Positions 1,265 through 62,842 of a stretch of DNA of 64,000 bases are shown here, one piece after another. Under the pieces are notes generated by a model that was not told the origin of the DNA, searched no databases, and saw only the letters and a program-made list of their open reading frames with translations. The stretch is from Buxus sempervirens (lineage: Eukaryota; Streptophyta; Magnoliopsida; Buxales; Buxaceae). Positions within the stretch are counted from its first letter, which is position 1. The number at the start of each line of letters is the position of its first letter. A program made the position numbers and the translations under genes. The stretch spans positions 35,452,392 to 35,516,391 of the forward strand of contig OX387190.1 of assembly GCA_947561395.2 (NCBI GenBank). Direction: 5' to 3'.

Positions 1265-1272
1265 ATGTAAAG

Positions 1273-1779
1273 TTAGGATTGGCAATGGGTCGAATACGGT
1301 ATGGATCTATCATGATCCAAATCCAAACCGAAAATAAAAATCAGGTATCTGAATTTGATCTGAAATCCAACGAATCTTTTATACGTGAATCCAAATTCGA
1401 AATCGAATTTATATACTGTATCTGAAATTCGACTGAATAAATAACCGAAATCGGAATTCGATCCGAATTAGATCCGATTTGAACTTAAAACTCAAAAGTT
1501 AAGTTTAACTATCAAAACTAATGAGCCATATAAATATTAAAGCAAAACATGAGTAAGGATGGTTCAACCATGATTTATACAAAGTTTACCAATGGTTTAA
1601 TGAAAAGTATATGTTGATTTCAGTTCCAATTTTATTCGGATCAGATATGGACATATTCAAATTCGGTCAGATCCGATATCCATTTTCGAAACACGGATCT
1701 ACATCTCATATCCGAATTCGAGATTTTCGGATTAGATTCAGGTAAAATTTGGATATATATCTGACCCATTGCTAGTCCT
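1273..1779. mobile_element. hAT-like MITE, 507 bp, with 8-bp TSD
   Basis: Imperfect terminal inverted repeats: the left end carries 'aggattggcaatgggtc', and the reverse complement of the right end is 'aggactagcaatgggtc'. The element is flanked by identical 8-bp direct repeats, 'atgtaaag', at 1265-1272 and 1780-1787. An 8-bp target-site duplication and this type of GGCAATGGGTC end are typical of hAT superfamily elements. There is no coding capacity; the interior is rich in 'atccgaat'-like repeats. It is non-autonomous. Confidence 0.8.
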
Positions 1780-1787
1780 ATGTAAAG

Positions 1788-13400: not shown

Positions 13401-16400
13401 GTTAAAAAATAATAATATAAAAGGATAACTAATTGATGAAAAAAACTCTTAAGACCACTATAACTCTTGCCTTCCCTCCCTCCAAAATTTAAATAAGATA
13501 ATAGACTGGCAGTTATGGGTTCGCTAACCATTAAAGGAGGATATCATGCAATACTGACTGTTGTACTCCATGTCAGTCTGTTTTTTGAAGATGTTTCACT
13601 TGCAGCTTCAATTGATTTAATGTTCATCCTTCAAGACCCATCAAATGCAAGATAATGATTATAAATGGTGAAAAGAAAAATTTGAGAAAACAAATCATGT
13701 TTTAAAGAGAAAATTCTGAAGACCAGAATCCTCCCCCCCCCCCACTTCCCCTCTCACTCTCTCTCTCTTCTAAAACTTGACTTTGGTATCAGACAAGCTG
13801 GTTAACACTTTCCGACATGTCGAAAGATAGAGAAGAAAGCATGACCAATTTTTATAAGTAAATCTTACCGAAATGGAGCATGAAGGACACACATATCCAG
13901 CAGGAGCAGTGTGGGGTGGGAAGCTTTTGATGTATGAAACCAAACAATTTGTGTGTATAATATCTGATTCAGAACAGAAAGAAACAAAACGTCATTGATG
14001 AATTATGAGTTCAATTTTTTGTCTTTCAAAGAAAACTAGAACCACGAGGCACTGAATATAAGTGAAAATCACATACGCAAACAACCCAATCGAGTTGTTT
14101 GAGAATCAGCTCCCTCTTCGAGCACAGCATGGCATTGGCAGCATGTAGGAGGCCAATCATACTCTCCATCTATCACCCACTCCGAATAAGTGCGTACCTT
14201 AGAGAGAAACACAATATCAGAACAGGGCCATGTAACCAATATATAAAGGTCTCATTGGCAACAAATATCAAAAGCAAAACCAAGACTTTAAACCATCAAA
14301 GATGAAGCCTAATAGAATCATGGATTTTAATATAGACTAGGCATGGCTTCTACTTCACAATGCAAAAGCTGATAAGTTATTAAATTTTCCAAAAGCAATA
14401 CATAGCAAACACTTTACAGTTCCTTGAACTAAAGGTCACACTTACAATACCTAAGTTATATCTAAGAAAATCAGCTTGTACACTTGGCGCTTCTGCCTTT
14501 CTTGAGTTCCAAAGTATTTCAACATGGTCAATAATTCGAAATTGGAGGGAATGAGGTAGCTTGTGAGTGGTGAAGTGATACTGTATGGTCTAGTTCATAG
14601 TATAACTTCAAGTATGCTCCCTGTACACTAAGGAGCATATTATTTGTAATTGGCTATTTGGCTTTGGCCTTGCATACTTGATATAAGATATAGATTATCT
14701 CTTTTATTTATCAAACTTAAAAACATTAATTAAAAAGATCTGCTTAAGGTGTTAACATGGGCCCATTAAAATTCCAACAGTCCAATCTACATGGGCCCAT
14801 CAAAATTCCAACAATCCAATCAACAAAAGTACTTCAAATAAGCAGAATGCACAAAGCTTGTATGGCTTCAGAAAGTATTCTAAGTAAAATTAGCTTTTGA
14901 AAGTCGCCTATTTATCTTTAAAGCTTTTTGCATATTATATACAAAAACAAATGCTTTTTGCCATCCAAATGCATGAATTAACAGTTAGACCATGTTCAAT
15001 ATCAAATTACGATTATAACATTATGTACGATAAGCTGCTAACTCCCAACTACGTTTTAATGCGAGGATAACCTAAATTTATATGTAGTCTTTCCACACTA
15101 GATTCAACTTTCTCTGTATGATCAAAACCAACTTACAGATAATTTTAACAAGAATTTGCCTTCATAAAAGCTGATGTCATCATCATTTATGAAAAAAAAA
15201 TTGGCGTACTGAACTGTGAGGTAGCCAACAACAACAGAGATGGCAGGTTAGCAGTCGTAATCTTAACATAGTCTTAATCTTTTTGAAAATGACTCAATAA
15301 ACCAAAGAAATAGTCCAGCCAGGCAAGAAATTTCAGAATTGCAATTTTTCTCAATTGCGAAGCTTCAAAGACTGCTGATTCTTCAAAGGTTAATCTACAT
15401 AGATACTCAAAGAAGACAAACTGTTAACATTTTGCCAGTGCTTCAATCTGCAATCCATTTTTTGGTTTTTTTTTTTTTTTTCTTCTATGGTATCTTATTT
15501 TAAATACTCCAAATTTAAATTTCAGTGAAGACTCAACTTCAGATTTAGTTTAAAACGCAAGTTCAGGAAATTTTTATCAGCATTGAAACAAAAATTTGTT
15601 ACGGAAAAAAGAAGATGACAAGACAATAACTCATATGAAAAGTATAGGTGTGTCCATTTCAGGCCTATTGATCACTAGCAAAGCAGGTACATAAATTGGC
15701 AGCCAAAAGAAACATAAGATAATATTGGATACCACACAGATTTGGTGTTCTGGGAAACAGATGCATTCTCCACACACAGGCACTTTATGCACAAAACAGT
15801 AAAGCTTGGTCGCCTGAAATAAAAAGAGAGAAAAAAATCGTTGTATGTTAGTATACATGTAATATGAACTTAGCTTATGGATGACTCTTGAAACAAAAGA
15901 ACAAAAAGATAAAATTATGACAGTTTTAGAGAACAAAAAAAACGGAGATACAAAAAAGAAAACGCATTCTTAGAATAACCAAGTGAGGAACTGTATATCA
16001 AAAGCTGACAATTAACCAGAGAAACTACCGCGCAAAACAAAAAAGTAATAATTAAAAAAAAATTGCCATCAAGCGGACAGAATCATTGATCCCTGCAGAT
16101 AGTTACAATGCATCAACCTAATATTCATAGAACCACACATCAAGAGTTAAACTGAAAAACTAGAATCCGATGCCGATCTGTCTTCTTCTTACGGTATCTA
16201 ATACGATTCATTATTTTCACTTCCGTTTTCTCTGTTTGTGATTCTTTTGCTTGACAAATTCCGATCCGTATGCACGTTTTCTTAAGCTAATGTGCATTTT
16301 TTTTTAAATTCGAAACTCAAACACTCAGATTTGTATTTAGATGTACTCGATCGGCAAGAGAAATCTCAAGCACATATCAGTGTGAACAAAAAGGAAAAGA

Positions 16401-16496
16401 AAATACACCAATTTCGGATAATTTTAAATAACCTTCTCATGATCAGAGATTCAGAGGAAAGGACAGGCGTACCTTGCGGCATTTGCAGACCACCAT
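4461..16496 (-). CDS. Zinc finger protein-like 1 (ZFPL1) homologue, 9 exons
   Basis: Exons, in transcript order: 16473-16496, 15733-15813, 14077-14197, 13869-13963, 9596-9667, 6937-7281, 6652-6757, 4948-5134, 4461-4548. These give 1119 nt and 372 residues, with every junction in frame at GT-AG sites. The start MVVCKCRK is split from ATKLYCFVHK. An N-terminal B-box-like finger (about residues 1-40) is followed by a RING-like finger (about 54-103, with CCQC, HIIHTNC and CPSC). A Ser/Pro-rich linker follows, then one predicted C-terminal membrane segment (about 337-356). In animals ZFPL1 is a cis-Golgi membrane protein that binds GM130; a Golgi role here is inferred from family. The 4.2-kb intron 4 and 2.3-kb intron 5 hold repeats. 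Exon 6 ends at a GTAGGT donor, and its neighbouring GT alternative would break the frame. Confidence 0.93.
7441..7924. mobile_element. Foldback MITE in an intron of the ZFPL1-type gene
   Basis: The two ends are inverted copies of each other over roughly 110 bp. The left end begins 'ggaaaattttct', and the reverse complement of the right end begins 'ggaaaaatttct'. Matching interior words include 'aacccta/t', 'tgcaaatt', 'cttctac' and 'aggtttggtttcaatc'. It has no coding capacity. The target-site duplication is unclear because both flanks are A-rich, so the superfamily is open (long ends suggest Mutator-like). Confidence 0.65.
11941..12343. repeat. Tandem duplication, 200-bp unit, in intron 4 of the ZFPL1-type gene
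   Basis: Two head-to-tail copies begin with 'agatgtaggtcctcaacgac' at 11941 and 12141, offset exactly 200 bp. They remain nearly identical through a pyrimidine-rich stretch, with a few substitutions and small length changes. The near identity implies a recent event. Long open frames here arise only from the CT-rich composition. Confidence 0.85.
12919..13060. repeat. Short tandem duplication, 79-bp offset
   Basis: 'ctagttctaataatccaag' occurs at 12919 and 12998. Each copy is followed by 'ataaagaa', then 'atcctttaggaggaaa' and 'ttgccaa'. It lies in intron 4 of the ZFPL1-type gene and has no evident function. Confidence 0.8.
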
Positions 16497-18143
16497 CGCA
16501 TCGACCGGTTAGGGTTTCGGAACCAACGAAAACAGAAGTCCACGAGGGAGATAATACGGGGGCCACCGGATTGCGAGAGTGGGCGAGCGAGATATGCATA
16601 TGAGGTGCAGCAAACCTTTCCTTGGGTTTTATGGTGAAATGCAGAGGGTGACAGGACAGAGATCTGCGAAGAAAAGGGTAAAGATATATATTTTGTTTTT
16701 TCGCCAAGAAGAAAGAAAGAGCTAAATATTACCGTTTGACACTTTTGGTACTGCAACATTATCAATGTCACGAAGGGGATCCATCCATCCACCCTTCAAA
16801 TAACGTGGATTCATCTGCTTATCGTAACTCTGTACTTGTCCGAGATGGTGCCAGCTGGATACTGAAACTGCAAACACAACATAGGCCCATTAGACTCTTT
16901 AATGCAAGCCCAATTGAGTTGGAGACGTGTTCTGGAGTCCTTGGTCGGAGGAACAAAATGACTGGACACCACGACCCTATAAAAGTGAAAATACATGCAG
17001 TTTCTGTTCGGAGTTTTCATAGGATCGTGTCATGTGTACTTAAAAAAAATTAACACTAAACAACTCAAGTTTTTCACATCCTTAAATTTTTTAATACGCA
17101 TGGCATGATTTTGTGGATGCTCTAAATAAAAGTGCAGTTCTGTTTGGAGCTTTCATAGGATTATGTCAAGGTTTTCATAGATCAACTGGATTCGATCATT
17201 TCACACAAGAATCTAAATTTAACAGTAAGAGTGGATGCTTCCAATATTGTGGTTGGGGGACCGGCACATAGCCGGACTCACACACACCTTGATGAGGGTG
17301 GGAATTGATTCCATGACTTGTGCTATTACCAGCATAATCTTTACCACCGGACCAGGCGGCACCCTGTGGGTTTAAACATTTGGTAATCGACTTTTCACTC
17401 ATATGGGGTTTATATGTATTACAAGTTTGATAGTGTTGTAACATAAAAGAATCTTTCATAATTAACAAATCTATCCTTGCCATGTAAAGAATTGTTCAAA
17501 CCAATTTCTATCATATCCTTCAGAATTTTTAAATATTACAAGTTTACCATCCAACATAACATACCGGGAACATGTTGTACTGTTTTCTCGTACTAGAATG
17601 ATACCCAAAGGTGACCTGGCAAGTGCAGCCTCAAAAACAACTCCCGAAGGTTGGAACAATATTCAAGTCAGCACGGCAGTCTAGCACCAGCCACCAAGGC
17701 CTGGGTATCTTTCACTGTTCACCCAAAAAAAAAAACAGAAACAAAAAAAGGAGCTGTATATCAATTCATATCCGGTTTATTCCCATTCTAAGCTAACGAC
17801 GGATGACATAGTTTATCATTGGGCAATTTCCATATTACAGCTGAAGCACTGCATAAAATATTCATCCACGTAGATACACAACAAAAAAATTCTGGACTCA
17901 GTAATTGTCATGAGTTACAATCCCACCTCATAAATTAATGATACACTGTTCCTCCACATTGTCTCCGTGCATGATCATTCATCACCTTAAGGGGAACATG
18001 AGGGTGGTAATAGTCGACATTATAAAAGAGGTTTAATCGCTATCCATTTTACCCTGTTCTATATGTGATAGAGAAGAAAAGACTATAATTCTATAAGAAG
18101 CTTTTCTTGCAGGAGATGTCTGATACATGACTGCTTTGCATCT
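16497..18143. other. Intergenic: ZFPL1 upstream region and ClpR1 3' side
   Basis: Contains the promoter and 5' UTR side of the minus-strand ZFPL1-type gene near 16500-16750 and the 3' UTR side of ClpR1 near 18144. A repeat lies at 16981-17172. No gene was recognised; small overlapping frames around 16292-17053 on both strands look like chance. Confidence 0.5.
16981..17172 (+). repeat. Dispersed repeat, internally duplicated
   Basis: Two direct copies of an 'aaaagtg...gcagtt' plus 'ttcataggat' block lie about 140 bp apart. The 'ggcatgat' and 'aaataaaagtg' words link them to the copies at 680-830 and 2520-2705. The AT-rich stretch between the copies, ending 'taatacgcatggcatgat', is also found inverted near 30405-30480. 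Confidence 0.5.
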
Positions 18144-19034
18144 CTACCTAAATCCTGAGGGAGCAACTTGTGGACCAGCACCTGCCCCTCTTCTCATTGC
18201 CTTTGATTGGGCAAGCATCTCATCGTAGTTCTAATCAGAGAATGACAATGTCATTAGTAATGAATATGAAAGTAAGGCAGCTGAAAACAGAAAATGGTGT
18301 GATGGGAGCTTTTACCCGTTTTTCGTAAGCAATATCCCTTGAGTCAATTATTTTATCTGCAATGCCATATGCGATGGCTTCTTGCGCTTGGAGATATTTG
18401 GGGCGTTGGACATCTTTAGCGACTTCCTCCTTTGACTTGCCAGTCCCCTTTGCTAATAGCTCAATGTAGTACTCTGTGTTTGCCTCTAGCTCTTTTGCCT
18501 GCAAAAAAGTAAAGTCTGGTTACAACTGATGACAGATAGGAAATATAAGAGAGCACATGATAGAAAATGAGGATGATTGCCTTGATCCACATATCAATGA
18601 CTGCTCCACTTGATCTATTGACTTTTGGCAAATATAATTTTGCTGCAAATCCAATATAAAATCATAAGAAACAGTGATGAAAAAAAGAGAGTGATGCTCT
18701 AAACCCAGAATACTCGTACAATTTGATCTAGACTGCTCCATTGGCAAGTTGCTTGGGAATAAAACCAGATCTATTGTATTATATGAATATTCAGATTAAT
18801 AGGTTTTTTTAAAATAGGTATATATAAAAGTTAAGTGAGACAGAAAGTAAGCAATCTTTTAAATTCTGTCTGGTTGGTGAGGCCGTTGTGTTATGCTCCA
18901 TCCTGTGGCTGATCGACTGATTATGAGAAAGTGGGATGTGCATTCATGGGAATGCAGTAAGGATAATCTTCACAGCTTCACTAAAAGAATTTAAGCCTTC
19001 CATGTGCAAAGAAATTACACTGTTCTATTTCTTT

Positions 19035-19075
<41 letters not shown>

Positions 19076-21810
19076 CAATCATACTTGAGGCATTTGGTTG
19101 TAGAGCACGATAACCCTTGGCTCCAAGAGACAGGAGCATAGCTGCTTGACCATACGCCATACCACAATTCACTGTATAGAATTTGGATTTGCAGTACTGA
19201 CAACAAGGTTAAAACAATAAGGTGCACAATTTGAGAGATTGAATCATCAAATACTTCTCCAGAAACAAAAAGAAAAATGCAGGAAGGCAAACTTCTTTGT
19301 ATAATTGAAAATCCAAGTGTCTAGTTACTTCTTAACATTTTCTTCTCCCAATATTTCATAACATCTTAAAATTTTTAAACACACAAAAAATTTCTTCACA
19401 GCTAAAAGAAAATTATAAAATATCTAGGCCCATTTCTTTTGCATGGAAAACAACAATGAAGAAAATATCTGATACCCCACAGGAATAACCATATTTACTT
19501 ACAGCCATGGTGTCAGCAATTGCATACGCTTCGGTTTCAGATCCAACAGCCTCCATTTTTTCATTCTGGAAAATAGAATGATTATGCCCAATTATTGCAG
19601 GAGGAATCCAAGAAGATCAAAAAGAATTATATGAACAATGTAAAATTGTTAATGCCTGTAGATGATACAGAAAGAAGATAATGTTCTAGACTAACCTGTG
19701 TCCCAGGTGAATTTATGTATAAATATATAGGCTTATTGGGGTTATCATAGTCCAACCACATAAGCTGTGCAACAACAAGCTCAGCTACTGCTGGAACAAT
19801 CTGTACCAAGCAAAATGCCAAAGAATCAAACAAAAAAGGATCTATTGTAATGGCATGAGAAAGGAGAAAATTTTAAATGGTTGTTGAATAATATCTTACA
19901 GGCATCCCCAGATAGCATATTCGAGCATCTAAGAGTAAAGAAGGCAAATCTGGAGGGGCAGTTCTTGGCCTTCCAAATCCTCTAGCTCCTCCACGATACA
20001 TGCTTACACTCATACTATACTTTGAAGGACCTCCCTCCTTCATGCCTGAAAGACTCCACATACCTCCCTGGTCTAAATAATTCCTGGCTGAGGAAATGCT
20101 CTCCTGTCACAGATTATTTTAAGAGAAATATTATTGAGGGTTATTTGTAAGACACGCAATAGAAAACAACACGAACTATCCAATCCATTGCCTTCCACCT
20201 CTCGTGTTTCACGAGCTGTTAGTTGGCTTTGGATGGATAGTGCTACCAGTATAATCACATGACTACGATGCACAATTAGCCATGAAAAGGTGTTTGGAGT
20301 GATATAAAAAATACTTTCAGTTTAAGGACTTGTCATATAGATCCACAAAAGTTACTAAGATGTTATAGAAGTTATTTAAAATAGATGACCTCTGTGACCC
20401 TTTCTGACTGTCGTCTGATGGGACTATCTTCAGTCATGAACATGTCCATCTGTGAAGCAGTAAGGCCATAGAGATACTTAGGAACATTTTTATAATTGTC
20501 CGCCACTGCAAAACACAAGATAACAGAAGATATTTTAATAAAATTGAAACATTTAGTCTTGCCTAGAAATTTATTTCAACAAGACCAAATTGGAATCGAG
20601 CAGATTAATATAATGATTACATAAGCTAGAAGCAACTGAAAAACTTTGAATTGCTGGCTTTGCAGAGGATATTCCGTTAGATGAAGAAACCAACAATTGT
20701 AGCAATCTTACAGATGTCTACTTATCAGATCCTCCAAAAAGAATAGGATTATATATAAATTCCCAGAATAGCATCTTGTTAAGTATTTTGGAATCACTTT
20801 AAGAATGTGTGACACATATAATTCTAAGACCAGATACACCAAGAGAGGGTTCATTCTAGTAGATAAACTCCAAATCCTTCTCAGGACAAGTGAGATAAGG
20901 AAAACTACTCCTGATACTAGGGCTGACAAAAGGCTATTCATGAAATCCAAAATTACCTATAATTTGCTAACCTAACATGGGAGCTTGTCAGAATATGTCA
21001 ATAGATATTTGTTCTGCAGGGAGTTTTAGTGCACCTTTGAATTCATTAATGCATCGTGTCTGAATGGACGATAAGAAGACAGCAATTTCTTATTTTTCTA
21101 CAAGAATTACATTAAGAAAATAGTAGCTTCTTAGATATATCAAGTAAGGTTTATCCTGCCCCAAGCATTCTAATTTTCCTTTTGAATCTCACAGGTATAT
21201 ATATGCTGGTGAGATATGTATTTCCATCTAATATCTGATGCTAATAACGATCTAAAAGTTTTCAACAATGATTATCTTACGACTCGGTGAGGTTAGAATT
21301 AAATGGATAAAATAATATAGCATCCGGAGTATTCAGATATGAACAACAAACAGAAAGAGCATCACACAGAGTCTCTTCATCGCAAAGCCGGAAGCGTATT
21401 TAGTACAAAATAGAAGAAAAAGTCATCAACAAGCGATAAATTTCAAAGGAAGCAAGAGTGGGAATTATAAAAAGCAAAATAAATAAAATAAGACAAAAAG
21501 GCAGCCATGAACTTGGTTTTTATTTTAGCGAAATAGGAAAGGTTTGGTTTTAGCGGGACTTACATCCGTCTTTCAGATTTTCTTCTCTGAACTTTTTAGG
21601 TACATGATCAATTGAACTCGAACACTTCAGATTTCTGCGCTTCCAATTGAGCAAATAAGATGAAGGAGCGGAGAAGAGCTTGGTGCCGCAAAGGAAAGAA
21701 GTCTTGGGTAACCCAACCCTAGAAACCAGTTCTCGATTTTGAGATTCGCCCGCTGGCGAAGAGACTGGAACAGCTATGGAAGAAGAAGAAGGGATTACAG
21801 AAGTGGCCAT
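18144..21810 (-). CDS. CLPR1: ClpR1, plastid Clp protease non-catalytic subunit, 9 exons
   Basis: Exons: 21564-21810, 20390-20505, 19900-20103, 19696-19800, 19503-19565, 19085-19196, 18581-18642, 18316-18498, 18144-18230; 1179 nt, 392 residues, close to the usual length of about 387. An N-terminal Ser-rich stretch (about 1-60) is a chloroplast transit peptide. The ClpP fold follows (PIYLYINSPGTQ, VPAVAELVVAQ). The catalytic serine position holds Gly261 in GMAYGQAAM, and the histidine position holds Leu277 in RALQP, as known for ClpR1. It should therefore act as a structural partner in the ClpP/R ring of the stromal protease. Intron 7 appears to be GC-AG (AAG|GCAATC). The start is the ATG of MATS, since no in-frame ATG lies just upstream. 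A truncated paralogue lies at 28769-29719. Confidence 0.96.
19036..19071. repeat. (GA)n microsatellite in a ClpR1 intron
   Basis: An uninterrupted run of about 18 GA dinucleotides that begins about 7 bp inside the intron after exon 6 (donor at 19084). On the transcribed strand it is a CT tract close to the 5' splice site. Confidence 0.95.
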
Positions 21811-21974
21811 GGCTTTCTGCAACTCAAACCCTACTTCCTTCCCATATGCGGTTCAGTTAAAAATAAATTTATTATTATTTTCAAATGATTATTACCTTCC
21901 ACATGGACTCTACATGGCCACGAAGGCATGGATGGCAAGGGATGAAATCGTCTGGCTGTGCGGCAGACGGAGTG

Positions 21975-22195
21975 AAATCGTCTGCATTTAGGTACTGAAT
22001 TGTTCCCTGCTTTTGAAGTGGATGCTTCCACGTGGAGCATCCCACGGCAGGTGTTTTTCACCTTTTTCTAAATGTTTTATATGAGCCCCGTTGAAAAACC
22101 CTTATCATGGAAGCATCCCATGCTCTACATGGAAGCATCCCACATCAAAGGCAGGAAACAAATCAGTGAAACATTACAGACGATTTGCTTTTGCG
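21975..22195. mobile_element. Foldback MITE with 'aaatcgtctg' ends
   Basis: Inverted arms of about 70 bp. The left arm has 'gaaatcgtctgcattt', 'ccctgctttt' and 'gatgcttccacgtgga'. The reverse complement of the right arm has 'caaatcgtctgtaatg', 'cctgcctttg' and 'gatgcttccatgtaga'. Similar 'gaaatcgtct' ends and 'gcatccca' words occur at 38519-38758 and about 33690-33725, so it belongs to a local family. It has no coding capacity. The outer boundaries may extend some tens of bases. Confidence 0.65.
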
Positions 22196-22292
22196 GCGTA
22201 CCCTGCATTTGTGGAATACTGCCACCTAATACCTATAACATCCTACGGATGCTATTTAAATCATATTTACCCATATGAAATGTAACTCCGAT

Positions 22293-22642
22293 GGCAAAGG
22301 AGCGGGGTTTTGACAAACCCGAACCTGCCCCTCAAGGTTTAGGTAATACGAAACCTTAAACTATCCTACCAGAATAGTAACGAAATGAGTCGGATTGTCT
22401 TGATTACATTATAGAATTTATAAAAAACTATTTTTAAGATAGAATATATAAACTAATATAAGTATTAATAAAATATGTAATTTTTATATATAATATAAAT
22501 ATATATAATATTTTTAATATATAAAATAATTTTTAAAAATAAACTAAGTTGGAGTCGAGGTCGAGGCAGAGTGGGTTGGGATAAACCCTAACCAAGTTTG
22601 GCAATACCCAAACCCATCCCACTTGGAGCAAGGCAGTCCCTA
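22293..22642. mobile_element. Degenerate hAT-like MITE
   Basis: The left end is 'gatggcaaaggagcgggg'. The right end, reverse-complemented, starts 'tagggactgcc' and leads into 'gtgggatggg'. Subterminal GGGTTTG/CAAACCC words flank a very AT-rich centre. The family style matches hAT-type MITEs, but no target-site duplication was found, so this is tentative. Confidence 0.45.
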
Positions 22643-22650
22643 CACGAAGG

Positions 22651-23164
22651 CAGGGATGTTAATCGGGCCGAACCATTACAACTTAAGCACTATTAGTAGG
22701 TTGCGTCGTGCCTATCATACCGGGCCCCAGGCCATGGCCTGCGAAACATGCGAGCGGCACAACATGCTTTAAGCGTGTCATATTGTGCCAACCCATGGGC
22801 TTACATTAAAAAGAAGGGTTTTTTTCTTTTACCTTTTGTTGGGGGTGGGGTGTTTTTTTTTTACAATTTTGGAGAAAATTGTATCCCAATATGTGTAAGA
22901 AATGTGTGTGAATAATAAATATATTTGTTTAGAATTTTCTGTGTTATTAATTTATTTTTTCCTTTTTTTAATAGTTTCTAAATTTCTTAATAAATTTATT
23001 ATATGGCCTGCTTGCCATCGCCCAACGATAGTTGTGTCGTGCCTGGGGTGTCAATATACAGGCCAAGCACGACACTCCCAGGTGGGCCTTGCTCGGCTCG
23101 TGAGCGGCCAGGCATGGGCTAAACGTGCCCGTGCTGTGCCAGGTCCGCACGATTAGCAACCCTA
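22651..23164. mobile_element. hAT-like MITE, 514 bp, near-perfect 8-bp TSD
   Basis: Ends are 'cagggatgttaatcgggcc' on the left and, reverse-complemented, 'tagggttgctaatcgtgcg' on the right. Flanks are 'cacgaagg' (22643-22650) and 'caggaagg' (23165-23172), one mismatch in eight. Subterminal GC-rich words such as 'ggcacg' and 'cgtgcc' surround an AT-rich core. It is non-autonomous. A related end lies at about 43211-43267. It is present in unit 1 of the duplication and absent from unit 2. Confidence 0.78.
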
Positions 23165-23942
23165 CAGGAAGGGCACGTTGGCATGCTATTAGGAGATCCA
23201 AAATCTTGGAACCGTGCTACAATTAGGTTGTGATTGATTCGTTTAATTTAAAAGAAATTGGGATATTTATAGTTTACCCCTTGAGGTTTCAAAAAACCCC
23301 AATTTCCCTGTGATATTTGAAATACTGGTCTACCACCTCGAGCCTTCTAAAGGTTTGACCATTAAAATTTTAATGGGTGGTATAAATGGATCTTTTTAGT
23401 TTTAAACCAAGTAAAAAAGGAATAAAGATTAGTTTTTAATTATATTTTTTCATTCTCTTTTATACAAAGGTTCTTTTTGATAAGACTCTTTTATACAAAG
23501 GTTAGTATAACGACGATGGCTCTGATAAATAAAGAGTATAGATATTACAATTCCGACTTTATATGACGCTGCCTACACCCTCTTGCCGGTCACTGACGCC
23601 GGAATGCTCACTAAAACCGACATTTCAAGCATAACCGTCAATGTTACATTACATTTTTGCAAATGACGGATTTCGTTAACTGACGATGTACTTAATTGGG
23701 AAGATACATTATTGCTTCAGTATATTCGTACTTTGAACTCTGTCCTAATACTGCAATTATAAAATCTCCTCTGCTCTTAGTCCTAGAAGCAGCAAATCAT
23801 GGAAAAATCTCCAGCCACGAAGCTTTTATCCTTCAAATACAAGTTTCTTCCCTTAACACAATGACTACCAGCTTTAAATACTCGAAATTTTGCAACCCCT
23901 AGCCGAACAGATGAAATCCTCCAACAAAAACCACGATCAGAC

Positions 23943-26900
23943 CTAGCTTACAAGGACAAACAATGGGTTGTCTCCCAACCTCTTTCGGCCCTGAAATCAT
24001 CACAATAAACATTTAGCAGTGACAAAGGACTACGAGCTGAAGAAGGCATCTCAGGAATTTAGTGAGAAAAACAGAAATGGGGAGTATGTGAAAGCTCTAT
24101 GTGAGTATGTGGTTCTTTTCTTACTTTCCTTGTTTATCTTAATTCCAGGATCAAACACTTTTTAGAGGAAATCCAGAATTCCAAATGTGTCATATATTGT
24201 TAGGTTTTGAAATCATCGTATACAATCAGACTGCCAAAGTAGCATAAATGGTGAAGGTTAGTTTTCACTGGTACGGTCAAAAGCTAAGTTGGACCACCCA
24301 ACCCAACTGTGATCATTTCCACTCACTTCATTTGCTACAAGAAAGCCATTTATGAGATGCCTATAAACCTGGCAGAATAATGAAGCTCTGGGTGTTCTAA
24401 TTTGAAGGAAAATGCAATGAATATATCTAACACCTGGGTTCTCCAAGTTTGATAAGCTAGTTTTGAGTATCTGAGAATTACTGATGTAAGTACTTATCTA
24501 TACAAAGCTGATTCCAATACTGACCTTCTAATCTCAGCAAATATTGATGATAAAGATAAGTTGATTAAATTCTGTATTTTTTATGCCAGATCATCTTCAA
24601 ATCAAGGATCATACCTGTAGCTCTGGCAATTCAATGACACAGGCACATTCAACCACCTCAACCCCAACACGTTCTGCAAAAAGATATGAACAGCGGAGAT
24701 TAAATAATAAAAATGAAACAGAAAAATAAGCCCATTAGAGCAATCATATGATCAACAAGTATGTCACCTTACAAACTCAAGAGTTGCCACCCCCTACCCC
24801 ATTTCTATGACCAAAGATTCATCCTCCAAGAATTCTATTACAGCCTCCATTGAATTTTTTACTGAGCTTACATGCCGGTACAGTATGATCAACAAGCAAT
24901 GGGAGATGCAGATGATTTTATTCTTAATAGTGAGGAAAATAACATCCAAGCATCATACAAGAATTAAATTATCACATGATCGTTGTAAGGGATAGGATTT
25001 TTCTTTTTTTCCCTTATGAATGGAACAAGAAAGCTTGTACAACTGTAAGGTGCATTCTGAGAAACTGTTGAGAATCAGAGTAAGCATTTACGCACCCACA
25101 AGCAAGAATTTTTAACCAGGTCCTCTCACCTTTTCACACTGAAACATCATAGCTCATGTTATCAGCTAATAAAAATTTGATCCCAAGTCTGGTTCTGAGT
25201 TCTAACCCTACCATTCTGCACTATCAGCATCTTTTGTCCTTTCTGAAATCATAATGCTTTCTGAACTGGAAAGTTTTCATCTTTTACAAAGTGAATATAT
25301 AGTTTTAACACAAATTACATCGGACTCATGACTTAATTATTTTCAATGACATTACTTATGCATTCATGCTTCCGGACTTCAAAAGAATCAATGAAAAATC
25401 TCTCAACAAACAGGTCAAAAACAGCTTATCAATATCTATAAAAAAAACATTACCCAGTAACCTGATTGCGGCACATAAAGTTCCTCCTGTTGCAATGAGA
25501 TCATCAATAACAATTGCATGTTCTCCAGCTTGTGCAGCTTCTACATGCATCTCCATCCTGTCTGTTCCATACTCTAAAGAATACTCTTCGGAAATAACCT
25601 CCCCTGAGTAAATTTCAAGACCACTGAAAGTTAAGGTATAAGCCCAGAGTTCTTATCATTAGTTTTTTTTAGACAAACATACCAGAGAGCTGATTTGACC
25701 TTCATGGTTATAAATGTATCACAGTTTTTCCCTAGTATATATCTTCTCCCAGATATTCCCATTCTATTTTCCAATTCGCCTTTTCAATCTTAGGTGATTA
25801 TTGGGCTACTCAAGGAAAATATCAAAATTAACAGGGTCCTCTTTCATAAATTCTCATAAAGAACAGATGAATGTATGATTTTCCTACTTTGCAGTTATAG
25901 GCTTTACTTTTCCACTATCCATTCTCTAGTGAGAAAGTATTGCCTAAGTGCACTTCTTAAATAAATTGTACTGTCATTTCAACATACAATTATGATGCAA
26001 TCACAAAGAGCAGAGTACTTAAACCCTAGGCAGATAGAAAAGCTCCACACTGATTGGAGCCACGCCAATTAAATCAAAGGCACATCTCCTTTTATGGCAA
26101 CATTTTCTTGTTCTATTTCTAATCCAATGTAAATGAAATAGTAACTTTGTATGTTGAAATACTTCCTTAACTTCGTTTCACTTAAACTCAGAGCTACAAA
26201 ATTCATAACTATCAAATTGAAACTCATTGGTGTGTGCAAAAAGAAATGTGCTGCAGATGAAAAATATGAACATTGTCTTGGTGACAGAGCTCCTAGGACA
26301 ATTTCAATCCTAAAACTGCCTTAAAACTCTCAGACAAGTTAGAAATATGAATACCCTTTTGTGTAGCACCTGAATCTTATTTTAACGAAAAAAATTTATA
26401 TTGAAAAAAAGAAAGAAAAGAAATTAGAATGTCATTAATCTAGAACATCCATATTTGAAGTAGCCCCTCCAAAAAGTAATATAAACCATGTAGTTAAGAC
26501 AGATAGAGAAAAGGAAGGATGTCAAATATATACCAGGCAACCTATTTGGTTTTCTCATGGGTACAAATTTTGCCCCAATGGCCAAGGCAATGGGAGGGCC
26601 AAAAATAAAACCTCTTGCTTCAATACCTACAATAATAGTCAGTGTCAAACAACAGAAAATAGACGTTACTATTGTTGATGTAAATAAAAGCATAAACAGA
26701 CAGAAATGCTATCATCAGTAGAACAAAAAAATAAAAAATAAGAAATCATATCAGGACATTACAAGTAGCTCTTAAATACATCCAGCAAATCGGAAACTTA
26801 TTTAAGTGAACAACCCATACGACTGGTTGTTTCAAGTCCTTTAAAAGATGCATTGTTCATTCTAGTAGGAAAACAGATTAATGAAGAAAGAAATCTCAAG

Positions 26901-27619
26901 AAGAAGTAACCAAATCCTGTAGGTAAAACAGGTAAATGAAGAAAGAAATTTCAAGAACAAGTAAGAACTAATACGTTTCTAGACCAAGAGAGGACCCAAA
27001 AAAAGAAGAAGAAGAAATCAAGAACCAGTGAGCTATCATCTGCTGCCAATTGACAGCACTAAAAAATTCAGCGAGCAACTCCAGGTAAAAAGAGATTACC
27101 AGCGACAACAGAGATGTCTTTGTCTCTGTATCTCTCAACAAATAAATCAATAGTGTCCTTAAATGCCTCTGGGTCAAGAAGCAGAGTCGTTATGTCCTGA
27201 AACATGATTCCTGCCATGAAAACACGGAAACAAAGAAAACAATAAAATGAAAACATTCTAGAATGAGAGAATTATGAGAGCCGAAGTAGAAATTTACTAC
27301 TTGAGATCTGAACTAAAATACCCGTTTCGAAAATCTAGACTGTTTATATTTTGAAATTGGAGAACGTAGGTGCCAAAGATAAGATTAGCTGAAAATTTAT
27401 GTTGGTGGGTAAGAACAAAGTTTTTGAGTTGACTGGAGAAATTAAGGATCTTAAGAACACTTCCTTCAAATTCCTTAACCATAAAAATACATAAAACAAG
27501 ACAAAAAAACGGTCGAACAGAAGAGTTTGTTGATTACCTGGTTTAGGAAAGTCGGGAATGACTCGAATTGTAGAAGCTATTCTGGCGATCCGACGGTCGT
27601 TACCTTCGTCACAAGCCAT
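23943..27619 (-). CDS. APT: Adenine phosphoribosyltransferase, 6 exons
   Basis: Exons: 27538-27619, 27100-27210, 26534-26626, 25454-25603, 24615-24673, 23943-23990; 543 nt, 180 residues, typical for plant APT. It converts adenine and PRPP to AMP and pyrophosphate (purine salvage); plant members can also act on cytokinin bases. Family landmarks are [18 protein letters not shown] (residues about 19-36), [13 protein letters not shown], the PRPP-binding loop [11 protein letters not shown] (about 127-137) and the C-terminus [15 protein letters not shown]. There is no transit peptide, so it is probably cytosolic. The start is the ATG of MACDEG; the open frame continues upstream but with no ATG. All introns are GT-AG. 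The tiny last exon (48 nt) is supported by frame, acceptor and family C-terminus. A broken copy lies at 31110-32042. Confidence 0.95.
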
Positions 27620-27902
27620 TTTCAAGGTGCAGCAAATCTGCTCAAACACAGCCACATCCCAGTCACAGAGAGAGAGAGAGCTATACTGACTTGGCACTCT
27701 TTTCGTAGTCGTCGCTCGTGAGGCATGGAATTTTTATGATTAGTTGGTTAACTTGCTATGACCAAATTATATGCTCTTCAGAATACCAACTACCGGTAAA
27801 ATTTTTTTTTTGCCACATATTTCTTTTTACAAGTTATTTTCTGCTACTTTTTACCTTTTTTTCTCTTTTTGTTAAATGCGAAAATGTCATCCAGCCCAGG
27901 TA

Positions 27903-28135
27903 GGGATGACAATGGACGGGTTTTAATGAACCTGAACCCGCTCCTATAAAGGTAATACCAATCCCGAACCTGCCCCTATCAGGTATTTAATAGTTCGGGG
28001 GCGGATTTAACCCGGTTTAAGTATAAGATGTTAAAAAAGAATATTCTTTTAATAGAATATATATATTAATAGTATATTTATTAATAAAATATGTCTTTTC
28101 CTGTTCGGAATTCATGCATATACTCGTGCCCGCCC
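27903..28135. mobile_element. hAT-like MITE remnant
   Basis: Begins 'tagggatgacaatggacggg', a typical hAT-type MITE end, with subterminal 'gaacccgctcc' and 'gaacctgcccc'. The opposite side reads 'gtgcccgcccaccattt' and abuts an AT microsatellite at 28149. No target-site duplication was seen, so it is truncated or degenerate. It lies upstream of APT. Confidence 0.5.
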
Positions 28136-28148
28136 ACCATTTAGCATG

Positions 28149-28175
28149 ATATATATATATATATATATATATATT
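28149..28175. repeat. (AT)n microsatellite
   Basis: About 13 uninterrupted AT dinucleotides next to the hAT-like remnant upstream of APT. Confidence 0.95.
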
Positions 28176-28768
28176 GCCAAAACCGAGAATTTCATTGAAT
28201 ACCACAAGAGAAGGCACCAACGTTGACTTCACTGCACGGTTCCTTCCTAGCATTGACTTTTTGATAAAACAGGATGGAGAGATTTCACCCAAATAAAGGG
28301 GTGGGGAGGTGGACATTGAGATCTGTAGATGATGATGTAAGGCATGACTTTATTTATGTATTTCTGTTTGGGAAGATCGATCTCCCTAATTCAGAATGCC
28401 CTAACTTCAGAAGGTAGAGTATAAGGTCATATTCTCTGTATATGTTATTTTTATTCTTTGTTACCTTTGGCATCTTCAGTTGAGACGTGGAAAGCAATGT
28501 CTAGACAACTCGCCAAAAATACAAATAGATACCCTGCAAAAGACGTATTTTGAGGGATGAAGAGGTGGGCAATCTCTGCAAGAGATTGTAAAGCTAATAC
28601 GATTGGCCCCCCAACGGAAAATATGTCTGCGTGGTTACCAGATACGAACGCCAATGATGAAAAATCGTGTTTGGAGTGCCATATGAGCATAATTTCAGTC
28701 TTAAGGACCTGTGATATGGATCCAAAAAAGCTACTAAAAAGATAGGAAGGTCATTTAAAGTGGAGGAC

Positions 28769-29719
28769 CTCTGTAACTCTTTCTGACTGTCGTCTGATGG
28801 GGCTGTCTTTAGTCACGAACATGTCCATCTTTGAAGGAGTAAGGCCATAGAGATGCTTGGGAGAACTTTTACAATTGTTCCTCACTGTGAAAGACAAGAT
28901 AACAGATGAGATTTTTATTAAACTGATACATCCAGTCTTGCCCAGAAACTTATTTCAGCAAGACGAAATTGGTTGCAGAAAATTAAGATACTGATTCCAT
29001 GAACTAGAAAAAAAAAACATTGAAAGAATTTTAATGCACTTTTCTAGAATTTATCCTGTCTCCCGCATTCTAATTTTCCTTTTGAATCTCATAGGCGAAT
29101 AAGCTGAGAACTTACATATTTCCATCTAATTTCTGAAGCCAATAACGATCCAAAAATCTTTAAAAATGGTTTATCTAATAACTCAGTGAGATTTTGAATC
29201 AAAGGGATAAAAGAAAATAACATCCAGAGTACTGAGAAATGAACAATAAACAGAGAGCTTCGCACAGAGTCTTTTCATCGCAATTCCAGAAGCAGAATTA
29301 GTACGAAAAATATAAGAGAAAGTTATCAACAATCAATAAATTTCAAAGGAAGCAAAAGAGGGAATTATAAAACAAAATGAAAAATCAGCCAGGAAATTTG
29401 GTTGTTATTTTAACGAAAGAAAAAAAGGGAAAAGTTTTTTGCGGGACTCACATCCGTCTTTGAGATTCTCTTCTCTGAAGTTTTTGGGCATATGATCAAG
29501 TGAATTCGAACGGGGCGACTTGAGACATCTGCGTGATGTGCACCTTTTCCAATTGAGAAAAGAAGATGAAGGAACGGAGAAGAGCTTGGTGCTGCAAAGG
29601 AAAGAAGTCTTGGGTAACCTAACCCTAGAAACCGGTTCAGGATTTCGAGAGTCGTCCACGGCCGATGAGATTTGAACACGTAAAGAAGAAGAAGAAGAAG
29701 AATTGAGGGAAGTGGCCAT
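28769..29719 (-). pseudogene. Truncated ClpR1 copy, exons 1-2 only
   Basis: Exon 1-like 29452-29719 encodes MATSLNSSS with a transit-peptide-like Ser-rich start and the ClpR1 words RLPKTSFLC and FREENLKDG. Exon 2-like 28769-28884 encodes LYGLTPSKMDMF and SPIRRQSERVTE. Both remain open and keep plausible splice sites (GTGAGT donor, CAG acceptor). By eye, exon 2 has 17 differences from ClpR1 exon 2 in 116 aligned bases (about 85% identity), many amino-acid changing. Exons 3-9, which encode nearly all of the Clp fold, are absent because the duplication began in intron 2. The duplicated 5' flank means it could still be transcribed. Reading past exon 2 meets a stop after a few codons, so any product would be about 130 residues with no protease domain. 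Confidence 0.9.
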
Positions 29720-30060
29720 GGCTTTCTGGGAATTAAACCCTACTTCCTCCAATTCATTACGAAGAATCACACATCAACTCCTTGTTTTTCTTCTTCTTTT
29801 TTTAGGGTAAACTGAGAAACACATCACACATCAACTCAGGCATGAGCCTCCTGCACTTTTTTTAGGGTAAAATTAGGATGGAAATGGGGCTCGGATCCTG
29901 CACTTTTTATTTGTACTTAATCCTGCTGCTCCAAAAGATTGTTACCACGTGTCCAACTCGCCACATCATTGGAAAGGTGTCATCTGTTAACCACAATTGA
30001 GATCCTTCGTGGAGCCTCTCTGTCCAAATGGCGGACTATGCAGCTCGTATCTACATAGTC

Positions 30061-30220
30061 CTATCTACATTTTTATTTGCAGTTCCCACAAGATCTTGCC
30101 ATATGTCTATTTTAATATTTAAATTGACTTCAGTTATACATCGCGTGAATGTCATGTGCATTAAACTGGACACGTGACCAGATCTTTTGTGGGAGTTGCA
30201 AATAAAGATGTAGGTAGAAG
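30061..30220. mobile_element. MITE, 160 bp, with 10-bp direct flanking repeats
   Basis: The ends are inverted: left 'ctatctacatttttatttgc' and right, reverse-complemented, 'cttctacctacatctttatt'. Matching 'cccacaa' and 'agatct' words lie further in. Identical flanks 'ctacatagtc' occur at 30051-30060 and 30221-30230. A 9-10-bp duplication suggests the Mutator superfamily. It lies in unit 2 of the segmental duplication, in the space where APT 3' exons were lost. Confidence 0.78.
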
Positions 30221-30259
30221 CTACATAGTCTGCTCTCTGTCTGAACTTAAAATCGGCTA

Positions 30260-30400
30260 GAGCCCTTTGCTAGAATATCTGTTAAGTCCAACGGTGAGTG
30301 TGGGTGTACACGTCTATGAATAGTGTTGATGTGTACACCCCACTCACCATTGGACCTAACAAATCTTCCCGTGTAAACTCCAGCAAATATGGCCTCCTCT
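30260..30400. mobile_element. Small inverted-repeat element
   Basis: Core arms of about 30 bp: 'gttaagtccaacggtgagtg' with 'ggtgtacac', and the reverse complement of the other arm 'gttaggtccaatggtgagtg' with 'gtgtacac'. Weaker pairing extends outward to 'tttgct(a/g)g' on both sides. It is a hairpin-forming MITE-like unit of unknown superfamily. Confidence 0.65.
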
Positions 30401-30404
30401 ATTT

Positions 30405-30480
30405 ACACTCTTATTTAGAGCCCCCATAGCATCATGCTATGTGTATTAAAAAAGCACTTGGTATAAATTTTTAACTATAC
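30405..30480 (-). repeat. Dispersed repeat, inverted partial copy
   Basis: 'cttatttagagc', 'atcatgc' and 'atgtgtattaaaaaa' match the reverse complement of 17090-17135. Partial copy of the family at 680, 2520 and 16981. Confidence 0.45.
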
Positions 30481-30819
30481 TTTGGCACAATCCCAAGAAG
30501 GTATAGATTGAGGCTTGCAATAAAAAAAAAATATAGAAACGGCCAGTTTTTTTTTTCTCAAGGCAAATAAAAATATAGAAATGGGAGTTGGGAGTAGCAG
30601 TATGCCAGGGAATCCATAAACGAAGAAACAATGTACAAGGGAAAAAATTGCGATACATTTATATAACGAAGGTCAAAATCATATATCTTTGTTTTATTTT
30701 TAACAAAAATTCTCACATGGAGACAAGAATTGGACAATAAAATCAAATGCCATTTCCAATTATAGGTAGGATGCCATCATAACAAAGGACTTATCATACA
30801 TTGATAGAAAAGCTACATG

Positions 30820-30990
30820 AGATGCTACGATAGACTATGCAACAGTCGTGGGATGCTGTCAAGTGTAGCATCTAATGAAAACTATCGTTTCGCATTTTTC
30901 AATGTGAAATGTCACTTCAACGACAATTTCACATTGAAAATGCAACTGCTGTCCCATGTGGTTGCAGGATCATGGCGGCGGAAGAATTTC
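30820..30990. mobile_element. MITE with central palindrome
   Basis: The centre pairs 'gcatttttcaatgtgaaatg' with 'aatttcacattgaaaatgc'. Outer words 'cagtcgtgggatgctg' and 'gctgtcccatgtgg' are inverted partners. The same centre occurs at 38519-38758, showing a mobile family. It lies in unit 2. Confidence 0.6.
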
Positions 30991-31109
30991 ACTCTAAGTA
31001 AATCAAGAGGTTTATATCATTTTAAAGCAAAAAAAGTCAACTAGGAAAAAACTTACAAAGCATTTTCAACTTGAACTTCAATGGTAGATATGTATCTGAA
31101 GAAAAGACA

Positions 31110-32042
31110 TGACAACCTTTTCTAGTTCTATTTCAAATCCAATGCAAATGCAATAGTAACTTTATATTTTGAAATACTTCCTTAACTTCCTTTCAGTTAA
31201 TTAGTTCTACGAAATTCATAACTGGTAAATAGAATCACTACAGTGTATACATATAGAAATGTGCTGCATATGAAAACTATGCCTGCCATTGCCATTGCCT
31301 TTGCCGCAGTGGTCAAGGCTATAACAGGGCCAAAAATAAAACATCTTGCTGTAGTGCCTACAATACGAGTCACTGTAAAACAACAGAAAGAAGATGTTAC
31401 AGTCGTTGCAGTAAATATAAGCGTAGAAAGATAGAAATGCTATCATTAACAGAACCAAAAAGGAACAAAAACAAAACCCAAAAAAAAAAAAGTAAGAAAA
31501 AGATCGTTCTAGAATGAGAGACTTCTGAGACCAGAACGATAAATACGCAATTTGAAATCCGAATTAGAATGAACATTGGAAAATCTAGACTGCTTTTGGT
31601 TTGAAATTGGACCACTTAGGTGCCAAAGATAAGATTAGTTGAATTTTATGTTGGTGGTTCAGATTAAATTTGTTGAGTTTACTGGCAAAATATGGATCTT
31701 AAGAAAATCTTAATTAAAAATAATAAAAAGAAAAGGGGGGCAAGAAACAGTGGAATATTGGAACAGGGTGTTGATCCCCTGTTTTAGAGAAGTCGAGGAT
31801 GACTCGATCGAATTGCAGAGGATATTCTGGCGATCCGACGGTCGTTACGATCTTCATAAGCCATTTTCAAGTGAAGCAAATCTGTTCAACACAGCGTCAC
31901 TCCCGGTCACGTACGGAAGCGAGAAACAGAGAGAGCGGTATACTGAGTTGGCGCTTTCTTGGGGCTCATCTCTCATCAGATTATTTGAGGCGTGGAATTT
32001 TGATATTAGTTGATAAACTTAATTACTATGACCAAATTATAT
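31110..32042 (-). pseudogene. Broken APT copy
   Basis: The exon 1 counterpart starts at an ATG at 31862-31864 ([14 protein letters not shown] against [14 protein letters not shown]). A 4-base insertion within the IRVIPDF region shifts the frame, and the splice donor reads AGGGGATC instead of AGGTAATC. The exon 2 counterpart is absent. The exon 3 counterpart (about 31300-31365) still reads like ARGFIFGP but with many replacements, and its donor side no longer matches. Exons 4-6, including the PRPP loop, are missing. It cannot encode APT. Homology to the intact gene also covers intron 1 and the upstream flank to about 32042. Confidence 0.9.
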
Positions 32043-32239
32043 CGTTTGGGACTTTTTCATAGTCACCTCAGCTTCTTTTGCTTACTTCTTTCGTTCCATT
32101 GGAAGTGCCAAAAGAAAAATAAATGGAATGCATAGGGATGCTCTAACTTGAGTGGGTAGAGTATAAAGCCATCTCCTATGCACTTATATTATTTTTAGTT
32201 TTTGTGGTAACCGATGGATTCACATCCCCTACAACAAAT

Positions 32240-32760
32240 GCTCTATATAGAAGTGGCAATTGTAACCCGTGACCCGTCAACTCACCCGGTCTTAGGCGGG
32301 TTTGGGTTGACTGTTTCAACCCACGGGTTGGGTTTGGGTCATGAATGCTCAACCCAATTATAAACGGGTTGGGTTAGGGTTTGACCCCTCAACCCGAAAT
32401 GATCCGATTACAACCCGATTATTTTTTTTGTGTAATAAAAGTTTGGAACATTATAATAACAATACTTGTAACTATTCAACCTTTCCTCTTTTAATATAAA
32501 TAATGACAAAGGATAAAGTGAAGAAAGACTTTTTACGTATAAATATTTCAAATTTCTTAGTTTCTACTAATATAAATTGAGGCATTAAATTAGGTTTGCT
32601 TTAATATTAGAATGACTTAAAAAATAGAATTTGTATAGACTTTGATATTATAATGAATTAAAATTTTTAATTTTTAGTAATAATTTAAATTATTTAAACG
32701 GATTGGCCGGTTAGAGCGGGTTTAGTTAGGGTTGGGATATTCCAACCCTAACTATTCACT
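32240..32760. mobile_element. hAT-like MITE, tentative
   Basis: Begins near 'agtggcaattgtaacccgtg' and is crowded with 'aacccg' and 'cgggtt' words for about 150 bp, followed by an AT-rich core and 'agcgggtttagttagggttg' near the far end. The composition is typical of hAT-type MITEs in plants. No terminal duplication was found. It interrupts unit 2 of the segmental duplication. Confidence 0.4.
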
Positions 32761-33877
32761 ATACATTTGACGGCCCCACTATCCATTTGGGGAGCCCTAC
32801 CATTCATTTGTGAGGGGCTGTTTACAACATGCGCGGTAGACGATGCCCATCCGTAACTGATACGTGGAAAGCAGTGTCTAGACAACTTGTCAAACAGAAC
32901 AACAGATGTACAGCAAAAGACGATTGGTCCTCGAGGGGAAATTTTGTCTACGGTGAGTAGGCTCTTATCAGTTTCTTTTTTTATTTTTTCTTTTTTTCGT
33001 AACGTGTTTAATATTGGTAGATGCGGCTTTAGATACGTGGAGTCTCTATCAGAGAGAGCTTGCCACGGCTCAGTTTGTCTGCGCCTTTTGATAAACGTAC
33101 TGAGCCACGCCTCTTTAAATCGTAGTGAGTCAGGTGTGGTTTTCTGCATGTGGACATTCAAACTACCACATTCTCCTTTAATTGATTTAATTAAAATCTT
33201 TTTTAAGTACCCAGCACAGCCGCCGTAACCTAGCAGCTTTATTCGATTTCGGAAGAGGACCAAACTCCTTAAAGTAGAAGATGAATTCAAGTTTACCTAA
33301 GAGTTACGTGTGTCCGAGTGATGATCGAGCTTTGAGCTGCCTTCGACTCTACGATTCCGCCAACGTTAGGCTGGTATGGATATCCATCCCTTTAACCATG
33401 CTACGGGTTTGGCCCCACATAAAAGCAGATTTCCAAAACTTGGATTGGATCACACTGGCCATTGTCGCTGGTCACCAGTCTTTTTTTTTTTTTGGTAAGT
33501 GGTCACCAGTCTACCGCACCGAAAATTGCGAAGGATTTCCAAAACTTGGATTGCTTGTCATGCAGCAACTCACAGTTGAACTTTTTAATCAAAAAATTTT
33601 TTTTTACATTTTAGAAGAGGAAAAGCTGCAAACCATTGGATGTTATATGCGTCAAAATCTGGATCAGGCAGCAAGGACGGCTGCATTTAACAGCGGTAGA
33701 CGATTTCAACCCTTGTTAATGGGATAGAGATATCTGCTGCAATCTTGGAATGCAATGGTACTTGTTGTCGGAGTGATGCCGCGTGTAGCATTTGACACTT
33801 TCACATTGAGTGTTTTTTCATGTAGGCCTCACGTGAGATATTTACAAAAGTAGATTGCAACACATTTCGTCCGCTTA

Positions 33878-34716
33878 TAAAGGGGCTTGACATCCTCAAC
33901 TTTTTATCTGCTTTGGTCCATGCATTTTGAGAAAGATATTACTACACAATCTCTCACAAACAACCAGAGCAGGGGGAACAATGCAATGGAAGTTTCTATG
34001 ATGCTTCCTACATGCATAAGGGCATAGCGGTTGTAGGACCATGGTAGCTAGGAACTATTGTATTGTGACAGTTTACTGTTAGTTTTTACGCATTTCTATA
34101 ACTTTCTATTTTTTAGAGTAATGGAAGCATTGTTCTAAGAGGAGTTAACTTGCTAATTAAGGCAGGAAACTAGATGAAAGCATTTTTGGACTTTGAAGGG
34201 CCTCGCTTCTAGAGTGAGATATTGGTACATGGAGCATATGGTAGTTGATTTTTTTTCCCTTCTTTTAAATGTTTCTCGTGGGGCCAATTGAAAAGCATTA
34301 TGCAATAGATGCTTCATGTGACAACATCTCATTCCAACACAGAAACTAATAAAACAACAAAAATGCATAGTAAATGTTATAAAGGATTTTGACATCCTCT
34401 ATACTTTTTTTCCTGCATTGTTCCCTTGCATTTAGATAGATATGTTGCCACACAGAGTATTAGAAGATTATAATTTTATAAACAAGAAAATATTTACCCA
34501 AAAAAAAACTCCTAAATGTCAGATGCTCCACGTGGGATCATAATATGAAGCATTGAATGGTGATAATTTACCATTAGTTTTTACCAATTTCTAAAACCTC
34601 TAATTTTTTAGAGTGATGCAAACATTGCTATAGGTAAGAGTTAACCTATTAATTAAGGCAGGAAACTCCATGAAAGTACATTTGGACTTTGAAGAGCTAT
34701 TGCTTCTGCAAATTTA
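33878..34716. repeat. Diverged tandem duplication, about 495-bp offset
   Basis: 'ttataaagg', 'gacatcctc' and 'catttgag/catttaga' at 33880-33960 recur at 34378-34460. 'ttagtttttac', 'tttttagagt', 'gcaggaaact' and 'ttggactttgaag' at 34079-34198 recur at 34571-34701, in the same order. Copies differ by many substitutions and indels, so the event is old. Confidence 0.75.

Positions 34717-53588: not shown

Positions 53589-62842
<9,254 letters not shown>

Follow-up and report, generated by a model that had tools for sequence, protein, structure and literature searches.

A duplication break that falls within a gene leaves a 5' piece of that gene at the junction. Partial gene duplication at the edges of duplications is reviewed in PMC3449122, as far as its accessible text goes, and in Arabidopsis chimeric mRNAs have been reported at rearranged gene pairs, whose upstream and downstream members are enriched in tandem duplicates, according to the available portion of PMC6545605. 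The accessible part of a survey of plant pseudogenes also indicates that, in every species surveyed except grape, tandem duplications make up a larger share of the pseudogenes than of the functional genes (PMC7935947).

The locus analysed here, which contains two adjacent copies of sequence from the gene for ClpR1, an inactive subunit of the plastid Clp protease, and from a purine-salvage gene, that for adenine phosphoribosyltransferase (APT), fits the kinds described in the accessible parts of PMC7935947 and PMC6545605. Like the tandem non-processed pseudogenes in that part of the former, it has an adjacent direct copy in which introns and flanking homology are kept, and one copy is disabled; unlike them, it involves two genes in one duplication, one cut by the edge and one copied whole that died later. 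As in partial gene duplication at edges, a 5' piece of ClpR1 lies at the junction and, as in the Arabidopsis pairs of the available portion of PMC6545605, one gene stands upstream of another; both likenesses are at the level of DNA. The sole literature search bearing on a prior description of the locus, which joined ClpR1, transit peptide and tandem duplication, found no paper combining all three. We regard the locus as an ordinary tandem duplication with pseudogenisation and one mildly odd detail, the open frame of the truncated ClpR1 copy (ClpR1'), and as a clean, readable example of a tandem duplication that truncates one gene at its boundary and leaves the gene within free to decay.

Extent of the two units and their junction

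Self-comparison of the window, the 64,000 nt stretch analysed (C12:35452392-35516391 of a 676,531,615-base genome, probably a plant's to judge from its genes and introns), together with a more sensitive run, revealed eight blocks of homology between two adjacent units, in direct orientation and collinear (Table 1), with a best E-value of 1.3e-157 in the self-comparison. The units are about 80% identical where shared, with a K2P of 0.239 over all shared blocks (424 differences in 2086 aligned sites) and of 0.259 over the noncoding shared blocks alone (308 differences in 1414 sites). A whole-genome search with a 272-base probe from ClpR1 intron 2 and exon 2 retrieved two matches, which are the two units (2 of 2 candidates scored). 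A sequence-only reading of this DNA had proposed a head-to-tail duplication with the same gene order, which the collinear direct matches bear out: the collinear similarity is present in the self-comparison of 20-33 kb, and the two units stand, with their edges corrected to those in Table 1.

Upstream of APT, the two units stay homologous as far as ~28634 (unit 1) and ~32955 (unit 2), and homology in ClpR1 intron 2 begins at ~28657 (20282 in unit 1), leaving ~20 bases assignable to neither side. The joining of a unit end to ClpR1 intron 2, previously placed at 28667, is found instead at 28634-28657. No microhomology is readable in this interval, where any at the breakpoint would be hidden by the ~20 unassignable bases and the 20% divergence; we infer a mode of breakage and joining such as end joining or replication-based repair. 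The outer edges of the duplication continue into flanks without shared sequence, with ClpR1 running out of unit 1 as far as exon 9 and unit 2 homology coming to its end, and one novel junction joins the right end to the left end. As judged from these alignments, the edge pattern, in which the left copy is whole at the left edge and the right copy is cut, is the one predicted for a simple direct tandem duplication.

Assemblies are also known to set similar sequences side by side in error, and the units could in that case be two haplotypes, or a collapsed repeat, placed end to end. However, 20% of the shared sites differ and the copies carry distinct insertions and deletions, far above ordinary allelic difference; haplotype duplication in the assembly is rejected on this divergence, and we consider an assembly artefact extremely unlikely. 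Almost certainly, the two units derive from a single direct tandem duplication of the segment from ClpR1 intron 2 to APT, followed by decay.

On this account, the segment copied in the nuclear chromosome began in ClpR1 intron 2, took in the 5' part of ClpR1 and the whole of APT, and ended at a point beyond the 5' end of APT. As the intact reading frames show, the left copy stayed joined to ClpR1 exons 3-9, so that ClpR1 and one APT remained whole. In the right copy, ClpR1 exons 1-2 were severed at birth and the redundant APT then shed exons and acquired a frameshift; deletions, a small inversion and MITE and hAT-like insertions built up in both copies.

Table 1. Coordinates of the features of the duplicated locus, in positions of the window
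Feature	Coordinates	Strand or orientation	Basis or detail
Intact ClpR1, 9 exons, 392 aa	18144-21810	-	PF00574 at residues 175-356
ClpR1 exons 1-5	21810-21564, 20505-20390, 20103-19900, 19800-19696, 19565-19503	-	Gene model
ClpR1 exons 6-9	19196-19085, 18642-18581, 18498-18316, 18230-18144	-	Gene model
Unit 1, complete copy with insertions	20282-28634		Self-comparison
Palindromic MITE-like repeat, unit 1 only	21969-22191		Self-comparison, genome relatives
Second dispersed repeat, unit 1 only	22287-22621		Genome relatives
hAT-like non-autonomous element, unit 1	22651-23164		Imperfect terminal inverted repeats, ends read by eye
Intact APT, 6 exons, 180 aa	23943-27619	-	Gene model
APT exons	27619-27538, 27210-27100, 26626-26534, 25603-25454, 24673-24615, 23990-23943	-	Gene model
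Dispersed repeat, unit 1, between shared flanks	27900-28100		Genome relatives
Duplication junction	28634-28657		Sequence upstream of APT (left) meets ClpR1 intron 2 (right)
Unit 2, decayed truncated copy	28657-32955		Self-comparison
ClpR1', unit 2, limited to exons 1 (29719-29452) and 2 (28884-28769)	28769-29719	-	Gene model
Palindromic MITE-like repeat, unit 2 only	30058-30233		
Palindromic MITE-like repeat, unit 2 only	30242-30405		
APT intron 3 remnant, inverted, unit 2	30624-30709		Matches 25663-25747 on the opposite strand, 71%, 46.8 bits
APT intron 3 remnant, collinear, unit 2	30736-30817		Matches 25960-26047, 67%, 39.7 bits
APT' pseudogene in unit 2	31265-31864	-	Exon 1 and start of exon 3
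Young dispersed element, unit 2, between flanks common to unit 1	32248-32748		Genome relatives
Shared block	20282-20650/28657-29024	direct	79% identity
Shared block	21150-21839/29050-29748	direct	78% identity
Shared block	26094-26268/31109-31281	direct	82% identity
Shared block	26569-26738/31300-31469	direct	79% identity
Shared block	27228-27772/31481-32042	direct	73% identity
Shared block	28396-28461/32138-32205	direct	78% identity
Shared block	28481-28545/32858-32922	direct	80% identity
Shared block, from the more sensitive run	28579-28631/32900-32952	direct	74% identity

ClpR1 and APT in each copy

The reading frame of ClpR1 is whole, with exons 3-9 extending past the left edge of unit 1 to 18144, and all introns of ClpR1 and APT are GT/AG, with the single exception of the GC/AG intron between ClpR1 exons 7 and 8. 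The protein carries the Clp protease domain PF00574 (E 1.5e-39), and its GMAYGQAAM aligns with GMAASMAAV of chain 6hwm_A, with loss of the serine; we take 6hwm to be a catalytic ClpP and the aligned serine to be the catalytic one. The assignment to ClpR1, rather than to ClpR2-4, is tentative and follows from similarity to an Arabidopsis ClpR1 sequence. None of the best 60 of 110 matches to solved structures covers exons 1-2, all starting at residue 156 or later, and these structures therefore give no outgroup N-terminus. Compared with the genome, the ClpR1 protein had 18 matches, 11 of them within the two units and the rest of the ClpR1 gene and the remaining seven on C9, C10, C15 and C19 at 34-67% identity; we take these seven for other Clp genes, and ClpR1 itself occupies one locus of the 676 Mb genome. 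The copy in unit 2, ClpR1', keeps the start codon and the GT/AG splice sites, with 128 open codons, and its protein matched no Pfam family.

The frame of the unit 1 APT is also whole, and its product carries PF00156, with a best APRT structure match of E 1.1e-54. In unit 2, exon 1 of APT' (31864 to ~31775) is broken by a frameshift and a stop, only the beginning of exon 3 is recognisable, from ~31357 downwards, and exons 2 and 4-6 were not found in the unit. Its retention of parts of introns 1-3, together with the disabling changes, marks it as a non-processed (duplicated) pseudogene. The decay earlier attributed to unit 2 describes APT' well, but less so ClpR1', whose exons 1-2 are open with splice sites.

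The nearest APT paralogue, on C4, has a dS of 0.88 over 178 codons, and the duplication (K ~0.24-0.26) is much younger than the split from this paralogue. Plant neutral rates range from 1.5 to 7 per 10^9 sites per year, with which the duplication would be about 17-87 million years old. Homology to the C4 paralogue ends just upstream of APT exon 1 (27632), and because of this it gives no ancestral right edge.

Losses, insertions and their order

Unit 2 lacks a counterpart of the unit 1 interval from 21840 to ~25660. The loss is a large one, as had been proposed, but its size is ~3.8 kb and not ~4 kb, since two pieces of APT intron 3 survive, one collinear and one inverted (Table 1). Both are above chance (the best score in 200 dinucleotide shuffles was 34.0), though they are short and show lower similarity than the rest of the shared sequence. 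Also missing from unit 2 are APT exon 2 and its surroundings (the counterpart of 26746-27218), a 56-base stretch upstream of APT and a 500-base block of ClpR1 intron 1 (20651-21149). The latter has a single match in the genome, in a search that skips very common words, which makes its deletion from unit 2 seem likelier than its insertion into unit 1.

A dispersed piece of APT, ~0.8 kb long and drawn from exon 4 and intron 3, lies at C12:20283607-20284421 and lets some losses be assigned to a single copy. Over 714 sites it differs from unit 1 by a K2P of 0.123, and over 247 sites from unit 2 by 0.263; the three-way block separates them less well, with values of 0.134 between fragment and unit 1, 0.195 between fragment and unit 2, and 0.285 between the units. 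Sixteen of the 137 gap-free three-way sites join the fragment and unit 1, 10 join the fragment and unit 2, and five the two units, and 86.7% of 2000 bootstrap replicates of this short block pair the fragment most closely with unit 1; it is likely, if not firmly so, that the fragment arose after the duplication. About 90 bases common to the fragment and unit 2 are missing from unit 1 at 26093/26094, indicating that unit 1 lost sequence too, and in the fragment this block has ATGGCAAC at both ends, as in deletion between short repeats.

The fragment, at C12:20.28 Mb, also means that distant copying did happen for APT, and unit 2 might likewise be a transposed or filler-DNA copy lying by chance beside its source. 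The collinear order of the whole unit and the shared noncoding parts are, however, more simply explained by tandem duplication, and we consider a transposed origin very unlikely.

Given a tandem duplication, the sequence-only reading had dated hAT-like DNA at 22293-23164, present only in unit 1, as a later insertion. This DNA is confined to unit 1, but it consists of two adjacent repeats, 22287-22621 and 22651-23164, the second flanked by 8-base repeats (22643-22650, CCTTCCTG, and 23165-23172, CCTTCGTG) that match at 7 of 8 positions as read by eye; a scripted comparison of the terminal repeats and flanks, set one base out of register, agreed at 5 of 20. Among 40 scored candidates of 2112, relatives of the repeats at 22.3-23.2 kb show 69-92% identity along parts of their length, and the repeats do not seem clearly younger than the duplication. 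Their absence from unit 2 is uninformative, because the host interval (21840-~25660) is gone there, except for 85 inverted bases left from its rightmost end; the dated order fails on this account, and hAT-like DNA is ruled out as a clock for the order of events. More generally, an insertion present in only one copy carries no information on timing if its site has been deleted entirely from the other.

The gain of MITEs claimed for the second copy is confirmed by the two palindromic MITE-like repeats of unit 2; another such repeat is present only in unit 1. The dispersed repeat at 27900-28100 is not clearly younger than the duplication, since its relatives are only 72-79% identical (40 of 346 candidates scored). 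For the element at 32248-32748, relatives of the main block (32248-32586) are 90-94% identical, except for one at 80% that spans the whole element across a length difference, and those of the second block (32590-32748) are 80-96% identical (40 of 1250 candidates scored for the element). Opposite this element, unit 1 is nearly contiguous at 28461-28481, and the gap nearly closes only if ~120 adjoining bases are also omitted, which blurs the exact empty site. The element's family is clearly younger than the duplication. These comparisons support an insertion that came after the duplication, and this is the sole insert for which the order is supported.

The open frame of ClpR1'

Exons 1-2 of ClpR1' could be expressed now, or have been so recently, as a short gene or a 5' donor with its frame under selection, possibly by splicing onto the intact APT, 1.1 kb downstream on the same strand; this would be compatible with a tandem origin. 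The 128-codon frame, with ATG and splice sites intact, agrees with such selection. When neutral decay was simulated from the ClpR1' sequence (20000 runs per indel rate), the intronic indel rate left an open frame in 0.4% of runs, half that rate in 2.2%, a quarter of it in 5.0% and the absence of indels in 10.9%. The intronic rate is probably too high for exons, as the introns seem to contain many T runs. An earlier simulation, which used different rates and started from either sequence, gave 0.2-1.9%. As a sign of selection, the open frame is suggestive under these models. All three exonic length differences are divisible by three, compared with 3 of 27 in noncoding DNA, although they may date from changes in the working copy.

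However, exons 1-2 show a dN of 0.164 and a dS of 0.252 between the copies (dN/dS 0.65; dN 0.146 in exon 2), a ratio that fits one constrained copy and one free copy and counts against selection on ClpR1'. Substitutions including M to V and E to K fall on residues that unit 1 and Arabidopsis ClpR1 have in common, the unspliced frame meets a stop six codons past exon 2, and the upstream sequence of ClpR1' is not common to unit 1, with no recognisable similarity between the units more than 29 bases 5' of the ATG (21839/29748). Selection acting on ClpR1' is unlikely, and we hold current or recent expression under selection to be highly doubtful. Splicing to any of three candidate acceptors that precede the APT start codon would keep the ClpR1' exon 2 frame open into APT, but they are weak (33-56% pyrimidine) and some in-frame acceptors are expected by chance. 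It is extremely improbable that the presumed plastid-targeting 5' end of ClpR1' has been kept open in an in-frame ClpR1'-APT transcript, giving a plastid form of APT from the only intact APT of the locus.

APT-like sequences elsewhere in the genome

In the Buxus sempervirens assembly, five APT-like (adenine phosphoribosyltransferase) exon matches lie inside 26 kb of chromosome C21 (C21:8193332-8218951); two of the five contain an internal stop, besides one more at a position of the exon 3 type, and the matches may come from a further set of locally duplicated APT genes. Additionally, a dispersed 0.8 kb piece comprising APT exon 4 and intron 3 sequence is found at C12:20283607-20284421, on the same chromosome as unit 1, the left copy of the tandem duplication, and 15 Mb distant from it. 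This fragment is approximately 89% alike to unit 1 (714 ungapped sites), and its exon part is free of stops.

ClpR1 splice site and other repeats in the window

Exon 7 of ClpR1 (18581-18642) is followed by a GC donor, resulting in a GC-AG intron. Self-comparison of the window also revealed tandem and spaced direct repeats elsewhere.

Repeats identified by self-comparison of the window
Feature	Position	Length or spacing	Identity
Tandem pair	11936-12345	unit ~205 bases	96%
Tandem array	52459-52803	offsets 124, 186, 248 bases	75-79%
Direct repeat	34049-34210 + 34544-34707	~164 bases	78%
Direct repeat pair	53347-53563 + 55345-55554	spaced 2 kb	94%
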